Below are positions 1,379 to 30,861 of a DNA stretch of 30,861 nucleotides, piece by piece; positions within the stretch are counted from its first letter, which is position 1; each line of letters starts with the position of its first letter. This DNA is from a virus. The stretch is from IMG/VR virus record IMGVR_UViG_3300008114_000091, positions 1 to 30,861 of that record; one strand, written 5' to 3'. The position numbers and the translations under genes are program-made. The notes under the pieces are model-generated. The model was not told the origin of the DNA, did not search any database, and saw nothing but the letters and a program-made list of their open reading frames with translations.

Positions 1379-1475
1379 GCCCGATGCGCCCACATCGGGT
1401 AGATCTTTGGGCGAAGATCACATAGGCAACCTTCCTCATAATATCTACCCCATCGGGACTCAATTTAAGGAGTCC
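1379..1475 (+). ncRNA. Structured leader with kissing loops and hidden ribosome site, possibly C4-like antisense RNA
   Basis: Four elements are visible. Hairpin 1 pairs CCCGATG (1380-1386) with CATCGGG (1393-1399), loop CGCCCA. Hairpin 2 pairs GATCTT (1402-1407) with AAGATC (1414-1419), loop TGGGCG. The two six-base loops are exact reverse complements. Hairpin 3 pairs GGACTC (1456-1461) with GAGTCC (1470-1475) and buries the ribosome site AAGGAG (1467-1472) of the Rha-like gene at 1481. The contiguous stretch 1443-1457 can instead pair with 1397-1404 (8 bp) and 1380-1386 (7 bp), competing with hairpins 1 and 3. That is either a cis-acting switch or a C4-type antisense/target arrangement, as known before phage P1 antirepressor genes. 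Identity as C4 is an inference. Confidence 0.6.
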
Positions 1476-1480
1476 ATGCA

Positions 1481-2277: not shown

Positions 2278-3600
2278 ATGAATAACACACCAATTGAAAA
2301 GAGCAAGCAAAAAAACGGAGAGTTTATACCAAACTTTACCCAGTATCCGAACGAGATCCTTGACAACTGGATGCCACATTTATCAGGAAACCAAACCAAG
2401 ATTATCAATGTGTTTGTCCGTCAGATTTATGGCTATCATAAAGACTACGATAGGATCTCTATCAGACAGATCTCTCAGAAGACGGGAATATCTATATCTA
2501 AAGTCTTTAAAGATGTGAAAAGTTTGATCTCAATTGGATGCATTAAGATACTCAAAAAAGGAGATAAAAACAATTCTCACCTTTATCAAATCCTAAATAT
2601 TACTGAAGAGTTACCCCAGAGGGAACACTCTAGAAGAAATAAAGGTGTTACCCCAGAGGGAACAGGGTGTTACCCTATAGGTAACTCAGGTGTTACCCCA
2701 GAGGTAACTGAAGAGTTACCCCAGAGGGAACAACAAAAGAAAGAAATAAAAGAAATAAAATGTGAAATAAAGGAAACGATTTCAAATCACAGAGAACAGA
2801 GAACAGATTTAGCTCACACATACATGATGGAGCCTTATTCAGTTGAGAAGCTACTGGACAAATCCTACAACTTCCTACAATACGCAGGATTTGGATTTAC
2901 CAAGAACCCTAGGCATATCCTAGATAGGATCTACAAAATGCTTCCAGCCGATTATCAGGTAAAGGAGGATGCCAAAGATCCCGAGATCATTAAACAAGCT
3001 ATAGAGAAGTTTGAGAGTGGTTCTGGAGGGGATAGGGACGCCATCTCAAAGAAGTTATTTCAGGGAGTGGAAGCAATGGCTAAATTGTACATGATCAAAA
3101 AATACGGAGAGGAATTTAGGGATGTTCTCTATCCTAAGATCTTAAACGATAACTTGATCCTTTACCTGAATTGCAACCCTACGTTAAAGTACTGTTTGCA
3201 GGGATTCTCGAACGATATAGATGGAGTCTACTCAGAGATCATTCGAATTATCAAAAAAAGACAGGAACAAGAAGAGAGAGACAGGATCAAGGAAGAGCAA
3301 AGATACCTTGAAAGGGAGAGGATCAAAGCAGAAGCACAGTCCAGACCACACTACTCAGATGAGGACATTCATGCAATGGGATTGAGGACGGTTCCAGAAC
3401 TCTTACAGGCTATGCAGGACAAAGGAAGTAATATTGATGCACTCGACAAAAAATATCAAGCTACAGACCAGACGATAACCGATATAGAGAGGGAGAGATT
3501 AGGAGAGCTATTGAGGATTAAGATGACCAATGGGAATTTGGATTTGTCAGAGGAGAATGAATATTTGGTATTGAATAGGAAGATGAAGGGCAATGGATAA
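2278..3600 (+). CDS. Replication initiator, lambda-O-like
   Basis: A 440-residue protein. Residues about 15-105 match the phage replication protein O N-terminal domain: 'YPNEILDNWM..LSGNQTKIINVFVRQIYGYHKDYDRISIRQIS..TGIS', a winged-helix DNA-binding fold. Residues about 111-152 are encoded by five DNA iterons, giving repeated peptides TEELPQRE and GVTPE. A Lys/Glu-rich linker and a long helical C-terminal part follow, with a charged coiled coil near 320-350. By analogy with lambda O, the protein would bind the iterons inside its own gene and recruit host helicase. No DnaC/P-like loader is evident nearby. ATG 2278 has AAAGGA upstream. The 3' end overlaps the endonuclease gene by 8 bases. Confidence 0.8.
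   Translation: MNNTPIEKSKQKNGEFIPNFTQYPNEILDNWMPHLSGNQTKIINVFVRQIYGYHKDYDRISIRQISQKTGISISKVFKDVKSLISIGCIKILKKGDKNNSHLYQILNITEELPQREHSRRNKGVTPEGTGCYPIGNSGVTPEVTEELPQREQQKKEIKEIKCEIKETISNHREQRTDLAHTYMMEPYSVEKLLDKSYNFLQYAGFGFTKNPRHILDRIYKMLPADYQVKEDAKDPEIIKQAIEKFESGSGGDRDAISKKLFQGVEAMAKLYMIKKYGEEFRDVLYPKILNDNLILYLNCNPTLKYCLQGFSNDIDGVYSEIIRIIKKRQEQEERDRIKEEQRYLERERIKAEAQSRPHYSDEDIHAMGLRTVPELLQAMQDKGSNIDALDKKYQATDQTITDIERERLGELLRIKMTNGNLDLSEENEYLVLNRKMKGNG
2610..2731 (+). repeat. Five intragenic iterons: probable origin of replication
   Basis: Five 17-bp imperfect palindromes with arms GTTACC and GGTAAC (or GGGAAC) start at 2610, 2647, 2669, 2692 and 2715. Copies 1, 2 and 5 are GTTACCCCAGAGGGAAC. 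Copies 3 and 4 have perfect 6-bp arms. The last four are spaced 22-23 bases apart, about two helical turns. A 26-base exact direct repeat (2602-2627 and 2707-2732) contains copies 1 and 5. Their position in the middle of an O-type initiator gene mirrors lambda ori. Confidence 0.8.
2732..2776 (+). other. AT-rich unwinding element candidate beside the iterons
   Basis: Directly after iteron 5 the top strand is almost pure purine and very AT-rich, with the 8-mer GAAATAAA repeated at 2743, 2752 and 2764. In lambda an AT-rich purine-strand segment next to the iterons is where the duplex opens. The same layout here suggests a DNA unwinding element. The segment also codes for the Lys/Glu/Ile-rich linker of the initiator, which could explain the composition by itself. 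Confidence 0.55.
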
Positions 3601-4480
3601 TTCAGTCGAACTAATTGGAATCTATGGAGACGATGAACTTATAGCATGTAGTGCATGGACAAGCACATCCAGAGATAAATATTATAAATCAGGGGTATAT
3701 GGAATATTTAATAAATTAAATAATAAGATATATATTGGATCATCAATTAATATTTATAAAAGAATAAATACTCATTTAAGACAATTAAAAAATGGGAATC
3801 ATATTAATGAATATTTATTATCATCATATAATAAATATTCAATTAAATCTTTTTATGTAATAATATTAGAATTTTGCAAAGTAGAAAGTTTATTAGAGAG
3901 AGAAAATTATTATATGATAAAATATAATAGTTATGATAGAAATAAAGGATATAATCAAACTATGTCATCATATTCTCCTATCGGTTATAAACACTCGGAA
4001 TTAAATAAATTAAAAATGAGATATATTAAGCTAGGAAAAAAATTATCAAAAAATCATATAAATAAAATAATTAATTCTAGAAAAGGGTATAAACATTCAG
4101 ATAAAACTAAAGAAAAAATATCAATAGCAAATTCAGGTATAAATAATGGTATGTATGGAAAAATAGAAAATCAAGAGCATAAAACAAATAGAATGAAAAA
4201 TTTTATAAAAGCACCAAAATGGAATATTGGAAAAAATAAATTTAATGATAATAAAATGAAATTAATATCAGAAAAATTAATTGGAAGAAAAGTTTATAAT
4301 TCAATAAAATGTAAACTTACAAATAAATTAACTGGTAAAGTATTTACTGCAAATTCATTAATTGAATTATCAAAAATAAATAATGAAATATCTTTACCTA
4401 CAATAAATAGATTAAAAAATAATCAATGTGGGAATAAGATAAATAATAAATATAAACTAGAGATACTAAATGAAAGCTGA
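3593..4480 (+). CDS. GIY-YIG homing endonuclease fused to a ThyX N-terminal remnant
   Basis: A 295-residue protein. Residues 34-104 carry a GIY-YIG nuclease: GVY at 34-36, YIG at 47-49, Arg57, and the catalytic Glu in 'LLERENYY' (about 104). NUMOD3-like DNA-binding repeats follow ('IGYKHSELNK', 'KGYKHSDKTKEKIS', about 130-190), then a C-terminal NUMOD1/HTH-like segment ('LTGKVFTANSLIELSKIN'). Residues 1-29 are different: 'VELIGIYGDDELIACSAWTS' aligns with the ThyX start encoded downstream at 4470 (ELLNIFGDD). Base composition turns sharply AT-rich at about 3677, the fusion point. The nuclease sits directly before an intact thyX and overlaps it by 11 bases, as expected for a mobile gene targeting thyX. 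Confidence 0.85.
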   Translation: MDNSVELIGIYGDDELIACSAWTSTSRDKYYKSGVYGIFNKLNNKIYIGSSINIYKRINTHLRQLKNGNHINEYLLSSYNKYSIKSFYVIILEFCKVESLLERENYYMIKYNSYDRNKGYNQTMSSYSPIGYKHSELNKLKMRYIKLGKKLSKNHINKIINSRKGYKHSDKTKEKISIANSGINNGMYGKIENQEHKTNRMKNFIKAPKWNIGKNKFNDNKMKLISEKLIGRKVYNSIKCKLTNKLTGKVFTANSLIELSKINNEISLPTINRLKNNQCGNKINNKYKLEILNES

Positions 4481-5141
4481 GTTATTAAATATATTTGGTG
4501 ATGATCTTATGATTGTCAATGCTGCACGTGTTTCTTATGGTAAGACAAAATCAGAATTGGATGAAAAGGATATTAAACTTTTAAAATATTTAAGAAATCA
4601 TAAACATACTTCTCCATTCAGACACCCACAATTACAATTTAGATTGCATGTTCCTATATTTGTAGAAAGACAACTTTTTAAACATCAAGTAGGTTTGAAT
4701 GCAAATTCTATAAGCGGTAGATATGTAGATTTTAGCGACAGTTATTATTATCCAGATAAATGGAGATTGCAAAGTAAAGATTCTAAACAAGGTAGTAGTC
4801 TGGATTTATTCCCAGATAATAGCACTATTGAGTTTAATCAATATTATGAATCTTTTATAGATGATTGCAAAAGATTTTATAAAAATATGATTGAAAATGG
4901 AATAGCAAAAGAAATGGCAAGAATGATTCTTCCACTAAGTTTATATACTACTTTTATATGGACGGGTTCATTACAAGCTTATTTACATTTGTTTGAATTA
5001 AGATTAAAACCAGACGCACAAAAAGAGACAAATGAGATAGCAAGTCAGATGTTAGAACTTGTAAGACAGACTGGAAAATTTAATCATACTTTAAATGCCT
5101 GGGGATACGATAGGATAGTAGACAATGGGGACATGATATGA
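4470..5141 (+). CDS. thyX: Flavin-dependent thymidylate synthase ThyX
   Basis: A 223-residue protein making dTMP from dUMP with FAD, NADPH and methylenetetrahydrofolate. Visible ThyX features are the start 'ELLNIFGDD..IVNAARVSYGK', the 'HTSPFRHPQLQFRLHVPIFVERQ' block (46-68), and the dUMP/FAD signature region 71-85, KHQVGLNANSISGRY. Here the usual RHR is KHQ and there is one extra residue before the Ser. The later 'ARMILPLSLYTTFIWTGS' and 'AQKETNEIA' blocks are also typical. The AT-rich style is shared with the upstream nuclease and ends near 5095. It overlaps the following gene by ATGA. The phage thus supplies its own thymidylate for replication. Confidence 0.9.
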   Translation: MKAELLNIFGDDLMIVNAARVSYGKTKSELDEKDIKLLKYLRNHKHTSPFRHPQLQFRLHVPIFVERQLFKHQVGLNANSISGRYVDFSDSYYYPDKWRLQSKDSKQGSSLDLFPDNSTIEFNQYYESFIDDCKRFYKNMIENGIAKEMARMILPLSLYTTFIWTGSLQAYLHLFELRLKPDAQKETNEIASQMLELVRQTGKFNHTLNAWGYDRIVDNGDMI

Positions 5142-8793: not shown

Positions 8794-9214
8794 AAAAGAA
8801 AATAATAAAGATGACAAAAGACTTAAAAACTTAGTTCCAATCAAAAAAGGAGAAGTCAGAAACCCAACAGGAAGACCAAAGTTACCTGAAGACATTCTCC
8901 AAATGAAGAGGGCATCAACCGAACAACTAATCAGTGCTTATCATAAATTTGCTTTTACTGAGATCAAAGAACTCAATAATGAAAAACCCAACAATCTAAT
9001 CGAACAAGGTGTAAGACAGACAATTTCAAACTTTGCAAACACAGGAGAGATAGCAGATATAAGTAAACTTTGGGATAGGGTTCTAGGTAAACCTTTGGAG
9101 TCTATTGATATTACAAGCAAAGGTGAAAGTCTTACAAACGACAAGTTAACTCCTGAAGAGAGAAGAGCTATGATAGATAGACTTAGATCCGAGATGGGAA
9201 ACAACAACGCTTGA
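8777..9214 (+). CDS. terS: Terminase small subunit-like protein
   Basis: A 145-residue protein directly upstream of the large terminase. It has the basic N-terminal 'VPIKKGEVRNPTGRPKLP' (about 21-38), the 'KGxxxNPxGRPK' motif seen in DNA-binding phage terminase-associated and DUF5681-type proteins. A helical core follows, then 'LWDRVLGKPLESIDITSKGES', a segment typical of small terminases. A charged C-terminal helix follows. It would recognise phage DNA and deliver it to the large subunit. GAGG upstream supports ATG 8777. The stop overlaps the TerL start as TTGA. Confidence 0.75.
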   Translation: MKVTSKKENNKDDKRLKNLVPIKKGEVRNPTGRPKLPEDILQMKRASTEQLISAYHKFAFTEIKELNNEKPNNLIEQGVRQTISNFANTGEIADISKLWDRVLGKPLESIDITSKGESLTNDKLTPEERRAMIDRLRSEMGNNNA

Positions 9215-10602
9215 ATAATACAAGATACATTAATAATCTGATTGAGGATGGTTGGAAGAATGCAGACTTGTACTACAAACTTAAAGACCATCAAATAGAT
9301 TTGTATAACCAGATCACAAAGGGAAATAATAAAAAGCACGTAGTCAACTGTTCTCGTAGATTTGGTAAGTCTTATACATTATGCCTTATTGCTATTGAGC
9401 ATGCATTGAAAAGTAAAGTTCATGTAAGATTTGCAGCACCGACAAGTAAGCAATTGAAAGAGATCATACAACCTATTATGATTAAGATTCTTTCCGATTG
9501 CCCAGAAGAATTGAAACCAGATTTCAAAAGTCAGGATAATAAATATGTATTCCAAAATGGTAGTGAAATACATATTGCAGGATGCGACAATGGAAACGCA
9601 GAAAACCTTAGAGGGCATGAGTCAGACTTGAATTTAATAGACGAAGCAGGTTTTATAGATGATCTGGAATACGTTCTGAAAGACATTCTCATGCCTCAAA
9701 CTTTGACCACTGGAGGGAGAACCATTGTAAGTAGTACACCTCCAAGGACACCTGCTCATTATTACAATAGACTTTGCACCGAAGCACAACTAGGAAGGTT
9801 CTATTCTCTCTTTACTATCTATGATAATACAAGTATAGACCAAGAGACGATTGAAGAATACTGCCAAGAAGCAGGGGGAGTCAACTCGACCACATGGAAA
9901 AGGGAGTATCTTTGCCAGTTCGTAGTAGATGAGCAGATTGTTGTAGTACCTGAATGGAATGAGAGTTACATAGGAGAACTAGAACTGGACGCATGGAGAA
10001 TGTACTATCACAATTATACAGTCATGGACATAGGCGGACGACATAAAACGGCGGTTCTCTATGGCTATTATGACTTTCGAAAGAGTGCATTACAAATAGT
10101 AGATGAATCGGTCTTTACTGGACAGGATACTACAACAGATTTGATTGCAAAAACAATTCAATATAAGGAAGAAGTACTATTCGATGGAATGGTTGAACCG
10201 AAAAGGATAGCAGACAATAATAATGTGATTTTACTACAGGACATGTCACTCATGCATGGTGTTCACTTTGCCCCAACCAATAAGGATACTCTCATGGCAA
10301 TGGTCAATGAGGTAAGAGTCTTTATCTCACAAGGAAGATTGCGAGTGTCGAGTATATGCAGGGAATTGATAGGATGTCTTACAAGTGCAATATGGAATAA
10401 ACAGAGAACACAATTCGATATATCGGATCTATATGGTCACTTTGATGCATTGGCTGCATTGATATATATGATACGTAACTTGGATCAGTATTCCAATCCA
10501 GTGCCATTTACAGGAACTGCAACTCCTTATACGCATCATATTAATTATCAGCAAGAACAAACTGAAAGAAGCAATTATAAGAAATTATTTGGGAGAAGAT
10601 AA
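9211..10602 (+). CDS. terL: Terminase large subunit
   Basis: A 463-residue packaging motor. The ATPase half carries Walker A 'CSRRFGKS' (47-54), Walker B 'LNLIDEAG' with Asp144-Glu145, and the coupling motif 'TIVSSTPP' near 175. The nuclease half has an RNase-H-like triad: Asp273 in 'VMDIGGRHK', Asp335 in 'IADNNN', and Asp412 in 'GHFDALAALIY'. Length is usual for podophage terminases. The TTG start at 9211 overlaps the small-subunit stop as TTGA and no other start exists near the N-terminus. It cuts and pumps DNA into the prohead through the portal encoded at 11165. Confidence 0.93.
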   Translation: MNNTRYINNLIEDGWKNADLYYKLKDHQIDLYNQITKGNNKKHVVNCSRRFGKSYTLCLIAIEHALKSKVHVRFAAPTSKQLKEIIQPIMIKILSDCPEELKPDFKSQDNKYVFQNGSEIHIAGCDNGNAENLRGHESDLNLIDEAGFIDDLEYVLKDILMPQTLTTGGRTIVSSTPPRTPAHYYNRLCTEAQLGRFYSLFTIYDNTSIDQETIEEYCQEAGGVNSTTWKREYLCQFVVDEQIVVVPEWNESYIGELELDAWRMYYHNYTVMDIGGRHKTAVLYGYYDFRKSALQIVDESVFTGQDTTTDLIAKTIQYKEEVLFDGMVEPKRIADNNNVILLQDMSLMHGVHFAPTNKDTLMAMVNEVRVFISQGRLRVSSICRELIGCLTSAIWNKQRTQFDISDLYGHFDALAALIYMIRNLDQYSNPVPFTGTATPYTHHINYQQEQTERSNYKKLFGRR

Positions 10603-29880: not shown

Positions 29881-30861
29881 CAGGATTTAAAAAAGCAGAT
29901 AAAAAGCAGGCTAAATTAAGATGTAGTGTATTTGGCCCATCTGGAGCAGGCAAAACAATGACAAGCTTAAGGATTGCTAATGGGTTTTTAAAAGCAGGTT
30001 TGGATTCTAGAATTGCATTTATTGATTCTGAACGTGGATCTGCTAGTAAATATGCAGACAAATTTGATTTTGATGTTTTAGAATTAGACAAGAAAACAAT
30101 TTTAGATTATACTAATGCAATTAAAATAGCAGCAGAGAATAAATATCAAATATTAATTATTGATAGTTTATCTCATGCATGGCAAGAACTAATAGAAGAA
30201 GTTGATAAGATTGCAAAAATTAAATACAAAGGAAATACTTGGGGAGCATGGAGCGAGGGAACTCCTAAGCAAAGATTATTAATAGATTCTATTATTAATT
30301 ATCCTGGTCATATAATTGCTACAATAAGATCTAAAACTGAGTGGGAAATAGGAGACGATAAAAAACCAAGAAGAATTGGTTTATCTCCAGAGCAAGGAAA
30401 AGGCATAGAATATGAATTTGATATGCTTATGGAAATGTCTGTAGAACATTATGGCACTATTATAAAAGACCGAACAGGTAAATACCAAGATGCTATAATA
30501 AAAAATCCAGATGAGACGTTTGGAACAGAGTTGATTAATTGGCTTAATTCTGGATCAGCTATTTCACTACCAATAGCCGAGGTCAAAAAACAAGAGATAC
30601 AATCACAAAAACAGCCAATAAAATCAGGCATAGAAGAGACATTTTCTAAGTTTAAAACAGCTATATCTGAATGCCTTATCACTTTGAATCTGGATAGATT
30701 TATCAAGGCAAGCCAGACTTTTGATAAATATGTGGAGACTTTGCCAGAGGAGATCTTTGAGGAATATAGCCACTACATGACTAAAACTCTAACTCAGATT
30801 ACAGAGCAAATCGAGTCAGGAGATTTTGTCACAAGCGAGACTCAGAGGGATCAACTAATTA
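29877..30861 (+). CDS. Sak4/RecA-like phage recombination ATPase (5' part; continues at 1-108)
   Basis: The frame runs off the contig end and resumes at base 1, giving 355 residues in total. It shows Walker A 'GPSGAGKT' (20-27) and Walker B 'ILIIDS' (Asp96), then 'NTWGAWSEGTPKQRLLIDSI' and 'HIIATIRSKTEW', the pattern of phage P-loop proteins of the Sak4 / AAA_24 RecA-like group. 'GIEYEFDMLMEM' (about 181-192) and 'KDRTGKY' are also typical. Such proteins support single-strand annealing recombination and replication restart. The ATGA overlap couples it to the small gene before it. The middle of the gene is more AT-rich than the ends. Confidence 0.85.
   Translation, partial: MTGFKKADKKQAKLRCSVFGPSGAGKTMTSLRIANGFLKAGLDSRIAFIDSERGSASKYADKFDFDVLELDKKTILDYTNAIKIAAENKYQILIIDSLSHAWQELIEEVDKIAKIKYKGNTWGAWSEGTPKQRLLIDSIINYPGHIIATIRSKTEWEIGDDKKPRRIGLSPEQGKGIEYEFDMLMEMSVEHYGTIIKDRTGKYQDAIIKNPDETFGTELINWLNSGSAISLPIAEVKKQEIQSQKQPIKSGIEETFSKFKTAISECLITLNLDRFIKASQTFDKYVETLPEEIFEEYSHYMTKTLTQITEQIESGDFVTSETQRDQLI
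30837..30861. repeat. Right copy of 25-bp terminal direct repeat
   Basis: Identical to 1-25 and in the same reading frame of the ATPase gene, marking the place where the contig closes on itself. Confidence 0.9.

Follow-up and report, generated by a model that had tools for sequence, protein, structure and literature searches.

The window, which denotes here the whole stretch of DNA analysed (30,861 nucleotides, IMG/VR record IMGVR_UViG_3300008114_000091), begins and ends with an exact 25-bp terminal direct repeat (1-25 = 30837-30861). This repeat, together with the existence of relatives of 30-32 kb, suggests that the genome is probably complete at about 30.8 kb. A leader with several short complementary segments precedes an antirepressor gene and a replication gene on the + strand, and its features are the following.

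1343-1348, + strand: -35-like hexamer TTTACA, invariant in the alignment, unique in the window and 30 nt 5' of the first hairpin
1379-1419, + strand: two-hairpin block of 41 nt, the putative antisense module, which belongs to one of four discrete types
1379-1400, + strand: hairpin H1, in which 1379-1386 pairs with 1393-1400 with a G-U closing pair; loop CGCCCA at 1387-1392
1402-1419, + strand: hairpin H2, stem 1402-1407/1414-1419; loop TGGGCG at 1408-1413
1387-1413, + strand: loop-loop complementarity, 1387-1392 against 1408-1413 (candidate alternative stem, dimer contact or kissing)
1397-1404, + strand: segment a', GGGTAGAT, which bridges the H1/H2 joint and can form 8 pairs with 1443-1450
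1430-1435, + strand: conserved CCTNCC (CCTTCC in the window), predicted partner of loop 2 and the 3' arm of H2 in fold B
1443-1450, + strand: target site a, ATCTACCC, complementary to a'
1451-1457, + strand: target site b, CATCGGG, able to form 7 pairs with 1380-1386; its final two G are also part of H3
1456-1475, + strand: hairpin H3, GGACTC 1456-1461/GAGTCC 1470-1475, overlapping the Shine-Dalgarno sequence AAGGAG at 1467-1472
1481-2221, + strand: first gene, pRha/Ant-like antirepressor of 246 aa (PHROG 63, anti-repressor Ant, E 7.8e-11; Pfam pRha, E 3.6e-4, a match that falls below the curated cut-off)
2278-3600, + strand: second gene, O-like replication protein (Phage_rep_O, E 1.8e-11)

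Four direct repeats of about GTTACCCCAGAGGGAAC lie within the O-like replication gene (2611-2732) and recall the iterons of lambda-type origins. In the region 3593-5141, a GIY-YIG homing endonuclease ORF (3593-4480), the start of which corresponds to the N-terminus of the ThyX-like protein of two relatives (L004 and L217), is followed by a ThyX-like ORF with a different N-terminus (4470-5141). The terminase (9211-10602) is closest to that of a Silvanigrella aquatica phage (28% identity over 97%) and provides the sole hint of the host group.

From position 1379 the + strand reads G CCCGATG (CGCCCA) CATCGGG T A GATCTT (TGGGCG) AAGATC, where the loops are in brackets. Exact searches place the hairpins, the six-base complementary loops and the contiguous 15-base strand a-b (1443-1457), which is complementary to two upstream segments, exactly where a preliminary description of this DNA had put them, and the two loops are exact reverse complements. 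The core of H1 spans 1380-1399, and its 5' arm CCCGATG (1380-1386) doubles as segment b'. H2 is followed by a stretch of 23 nt that holds CCTTCC, and then by ATCTACCC CATCGGG ACTC AATTTAAG GAGTCC ATGCA ATG with the start codon at 1481, so that site b ends about 24 nt upstream of the start codon. That the third hairpin buries AAGGAG, as had been proposed, is correct to the extent that H3 overlaps this sequence, but the stem holds only three of the six bases of AAGGAG, the other three being in the loop. An exact search of the + strand upstream of the block found no further copy of site a or site b.

Using protein searches with the downstream gene and DNA patterns, we found nine further leaders of the same design in IMG/VR contigs: L002, L003 (the same leader is also present in L057), L004 (also in L074), L035, L072, L133, L147, L217 and L218. 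A covariance model of the block detects it once per record in the ten records that were searched in full (E ~3e-17 or better), with one extra match at chance level; as the model was built from these very leaders, only the copy number is informative. No second copy of the block was found elsewhere in the genomes. A search for DNA relatives among named phages and plasmids gave no useful match, and none of the 35 matches in a pattern scan of genome contigs had the two-hairpin design. The blocks fall into four types.

Type I (the window): loops CGCCCA/TGGGCG
Type II (L002, L218): loops CCGTCA/TGACGG
Type III (L003, L004, L072): loops CCCATA/TATGGG
Type IV (L035, L133, L147, L217): loops CCCTCA/TGAGGG

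The genes that follow the leader are more diverse than the leader's earlier assignment to a Rha-like regulator implied. In the window, L002 and L003, a pRha/Ant-like gene comes first (by similarity in the latter two); the leading gene carries Bro-N and ANT domains in L072 and L147, and an ANT domain in L035 and L133. In L004 the first gene encodes a 90-aa protein and the second, from our reading of its translation, presumably a Bro-N-like antirepressor. An antirepressor-type first or second gene, recognised by domain or by similarity to the window protein, is thus present in 8 of the 10 loci, so that the assignment holds for most of them but is too narrow: L217 starts with a 134-aa protein of no known kind, and L218 with what we take, again from the translation, to be a helicase-like protein. 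An O-like replication gene, identified by similarity, also follows in L004 and L217. The constant setting of the leader appears to be an early replication operon that is most often led by an antirepressor.

Comparison of the leaders points to a structured RNA. In an alignment of 9 distinct rows and 20 pairs (H1, H2 and the loop-loop helix), all 180 cells are paired (100%), and nine of the 20 pairs have changes on both sides: three in H1, four of the six in the loop-loop helix and two in H2. For fold A plus the loop-loop helix, none of 500 shuffles scored as high on four of five measures, and every slid control was far lower. For a'-a and b'-b, 92.6% of the cells are paired, four pairs have changed on both sides and none of 500 shuffles scored as high on three of five measures, a count that is flattered since complementarity guided the choice of the a and b sites in the relatives; b'-b is reduced to 4-5 pairs in L002, L004 and L218. 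At 1401, the sole base of the block that is unpaired in fold A, type III has G where types I, II and IV have A, with C and U, respectively, as the matching partner in site a. As the type differences all fall on pairs of fold A, the loop-loop helix or a'-a/b'-b, every variable base of the block is explained by a pairing. Conservation and covariation of H1, H2, the loop-loop helix, a'-a and b'-b are thereby shown at the level of sequence, resting on few independent events given that there are only four block types. The covariation on which the preliminary description had staked its case was found, and the loops are 100% complementary across the relatives.

The design of the leader is far from chance. 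When 1.8 Mb was searched on both strands, adjacent hairpins with perfectly complementary loops of at least 6 nt occurred at three unrelated loci besides this leader and its homologues. The single-sequence folding energy of the leader is only moderately unusual (z -2.1), and we take the strong evidence for the element to be comparative rather than a matter of folding a single sequence. We are highly confident that a conserved RNA element is real.

The block moves as a cassette. Within a type all 41 of its positions are identical, also between phages with divergent flanks: the block of L002 is the same as that of L218, while their upstream 45 nt are 69% alike and their downstream genes differ. 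Conversely, the upstream 45 nt of L002 and L072 are identical and their blocks agree at only 22 of 41 positions. In L072 (6999-7160), the upstream 45 nt equal those of L002, and the block and the part downstream of it resemble L003. The conserved leader thus behaves as a recombination joint at which block types and first genes are swapped. Such a mosaic joint, with block types exchanged against a constant upstream sequence, could be a DNA-level element, either protein-binding inverted repeats or the joint itself, that has no role as RNA. We regard this as very improbable, since the strictly compensated, exact-register changes in H1, H2 and the loop-loop helix, together with G-U pairs on the transcribed strand in both hairpins, fit RNA pairing and not a fixed protein site.

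How could such an RNA act? The reading that we favour, with a probability of roughly 0.55, is that the leader is the 5' RNA of the early antirepressor/replication operon, and that its first 41 nt (H1 and H2) serve as an antisense module that would pair with the a-b strand (1443-1457), just 5' of the first gene's ribosome site, in cis and probably, as a separate copy, in trans. In fold A, H1 and H2 would be closed, the a-b strand free and H3 able to form over the Shine-Dalgarno sequence. In fold B, b'-b and a'-a would be paired, H1 and H2 opened, and site b would take the first two G of H3. When either fold was forced (H1 + H2 or a'-a + b'-b), the ensemble energies, which leave pseudoknots and loop-loop contacts out, differed by at most 3 kcal/mol in 8 of the 10 leaders; the exceptions are L003, which favours B by 6.4 kcal/mol, and L035, which favours A by 3.3 kcal/mol. 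Fold B is mostly predicted as a rod, in which loop 2 and the 3' arm of H2 are paired with CCTNCC. The core of the preliminary description, a leader RNA at a C4-like position that is conserved, covaries and can adopt either of two incompatible folds, is borne out by these results, and we infer that the regulatory event is quite probably an exchange between the closed hairpins and pairing with the downstream strand.

What this exchange does to the ribosome site is less clear-cut. The predicted accessibility of the Shine-Dalgarno sequence is nearly equal between the folds in several to most leaders; it is slightly higher in fold B in most of them, and clearly so in L004 and L218. There is at best a weak trend in these models for fold B to expose the Shine-Dalgarno sequence. 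As the predicted accessibility changes so little, the claim that switching hides or frees the ribosome site is not established.

The mutually complementary loops had been described as kissing loops. Their complementarity is conserved and covaries, but kissing within one molecule is sterically doubtful. With six-base loops fully paired, the two stems and the kissing helix between them would stack almost in line, an arrangement that a linker of 1-2 nt cannot close, and intramolecular kissing of H1 and H2 was set aside on this structural, not computed, argument. Three readings remain. First, 1387-1392 and 1408-1413 may form an alternative stem, which would leave a' in a 15-base loop and b' free on the 5' side; this is the shape that would expose both antisense segments. 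By prediction, H1 + H2 is more stable than this stem alone by 9 to 12 kcal/mol, a cost that the target would have to cover. Second, two molecules may pair through H1 of one and H2 of the other. Third, H1 may form a short pseudoknot with H2 open. We argue that the loop-loop complementarity most likely represents either the alternative stem, with a' and b' on the target, or a two-molecule contact, rather than kissing within a molecule.

The variation among types bears on whether the module also acts on other molecules. No block type pairs better with a given target than the type that belongs to it, and the strongest partner of each loop 1 is its own loop 2. Types I and IV have a' and b' in common and differ only in the loops and H2; if specificity types exist, the loops must therefore matter. 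Exchange of the block as a cassette is, judging from the sequences, as expected of a specificity module. An RNA that remains purely a cis switch, moving from one fold to the other as dictated by translation, the speed of transcription, a protein or a small molecule, would agree with the near-equal energy of the two folds and with the fact that block and target are always adjacent, in one copy per genome, with no terminator and no second target. Yet a cis switch alone explains poorly why types I and IV share a' and b' but differ in the loops and H2, and why the block is constant at 41 of 41 positions within a type and exchanged as a cassette while its own cis target and flanks vary. We consider a pure cis switch rather unlikely. 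Mainly from the loop- and H2-only difference of types I and IV, we prefer an RNA that would also act in trans: a copy of the module, produced by processing or by premature termination, could act on transcripts of incoming or sister phages, as C4, P4 CI and IsrK do. Trans action by a separate RNA is less certain than the exchange of folds, and we would put its chances at close to even. More speculative, and in our view doubtful, is that the leader represents a new phage RNA family in which the complementary loop pair sets the specificity type; by H1-H2 recognition between two copies, or by zipping of the loops once a' and b' hold the target, phages of the same type would cross-control each other's replication operons.

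A possible promoter of the leader is suggested by TTTACA. All leaders carry this hexamer despite compensating indels in the spacer, and its distance to the first hairpin is 29 in L218 and 30 elsewhere. We read it as a candidate promoter element of the leader, with the -10 box not made out: no convincing -10 sequence is paired with it, and a consensus scan, which speaks against this reading, calls no promoter there. No terminator-like site, intrinsic terminator or consensus-matching promoter was found within 1250-1650, which counts against a separate short RNA. The put RNA of phage HK022 shares the layout of two stem-loops side by side close to where an early phage transcript begins (PMC9378689). 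It is conceivable that the two 5' hairpins modify RNA polymerase as an antitermination RNA, with the downstream complementarity being secondary, and the early-operon setting that is kept while first genes vary would suit such a role. However, a put-like RNA predicts neither the loop-loop nor the a'-a/b'-b covariation, and there is no Rfam match whatever, so that we find this improbable. HK022 put is an analogue in layout only, as no loop-loop or downstream complementarity was found in its description (PMC9378689).

Models of tyrosine integrase, serine recombinase, HTH_3, S24 and ParA-type proteins gave no match in the window or its relatives. As no integrase or repressor matched the models tried, the role of the P1 element in lysogenic immunity cannot simply be transferred to these phages, in which classical lysogenic immunity may be absent. 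If the reading of the types as specificity types is true, the phages of the same type that would cross-control their replication operons are phages with this seeming lack of integrase and classical repressor.

A few enterobacterial elements, namely C4, CI and IsrK, are known to control antirepressor and replication operons of phages by antisense RNA. The C4 RNA of phages P1 and P7 is encoded on the same strand upstream of the antirepressor operon; its segments a' and b' are complementary to nearby downstream sites a and b, and small sequence differences set its target specificity (PMC5320573). Like C4, as comparison with the P1 record confirms, the leader described here lies on the same strand before an antirepressor operon and has two separate segments complementary to a site near the ribosome site. 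These likenesses would also be expected of a true C4 member that a too narrow Rfam model had missed. The C4 model (RF01695) scored 68.8 bits on P1 as positive control; in the window, Rfam gave no match of any kind at the gathering threshold and, on 1340-1500, none at E<=10, which was also the outcome of the search with the C4 model that the preliminary description had proposed. Reciprocally, a covariance model of this element (R1) gave no match in the c4 region of P1. C4 has a long closing helix round its two hairpins, a' and b' in loops, and processing by RNase P to a trans RNA of ~77 nt; in contrast, this leader has tandem hairpins without a conserved enclosing helix, mutually complementary loops, and a' and b' in stems. 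Membership in the C4 family was rejected, and that the model was too narrow is hardly credible. The likeness to C4 put forward earlier survives as two-segment complementarity and position, not as family membership.

The closest likeness is to IsrK of the Salmonella prophage Gifsy-1, an antirepressor-operon leader with two folds, the short form of which acts in trans on the leader and switches translation; experiments on it provide a precedent for a bistable leader of an antirepressor operon combined with an RNA acting in trans (PMC4825925). What the two share is a leader whose alternative folds are about equally stable (here predicted to be <=3 kcal/mol apart in 8 of the 10 leaders). IsrK differs by the upstream ORF orf45 and by a Rho-independent terminator of its own; in this leader no terminator was seen, and there is no similarity in Rfam. 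The CI RNA of satellite phage P4, as described in PMC4825925, comes from the leader of a replication operon, pairs with complementary stretches of that leader and controls the operon. P4 CI works through transcription termination and has targets on either side, seqA upstream and seqC downstream, unlike this leader, in which the target is downstream only, with no seqA-like upstream site and no terminator found.

In the open-licence literature we found nothing matching a phage leader with complementary loops. The family is apparently undescribed and new, while its mechanism would be of a known kind, that of C4, P4 CI and IsrK. If our interpretation is true, an uncultured and different group of phages has arrived independently at a solution of its own, built more simply from two hairpins with a loop code that can be read, and the element would make a good test case for an RNA that is both part of a leader and the antisense regulator of that leader.
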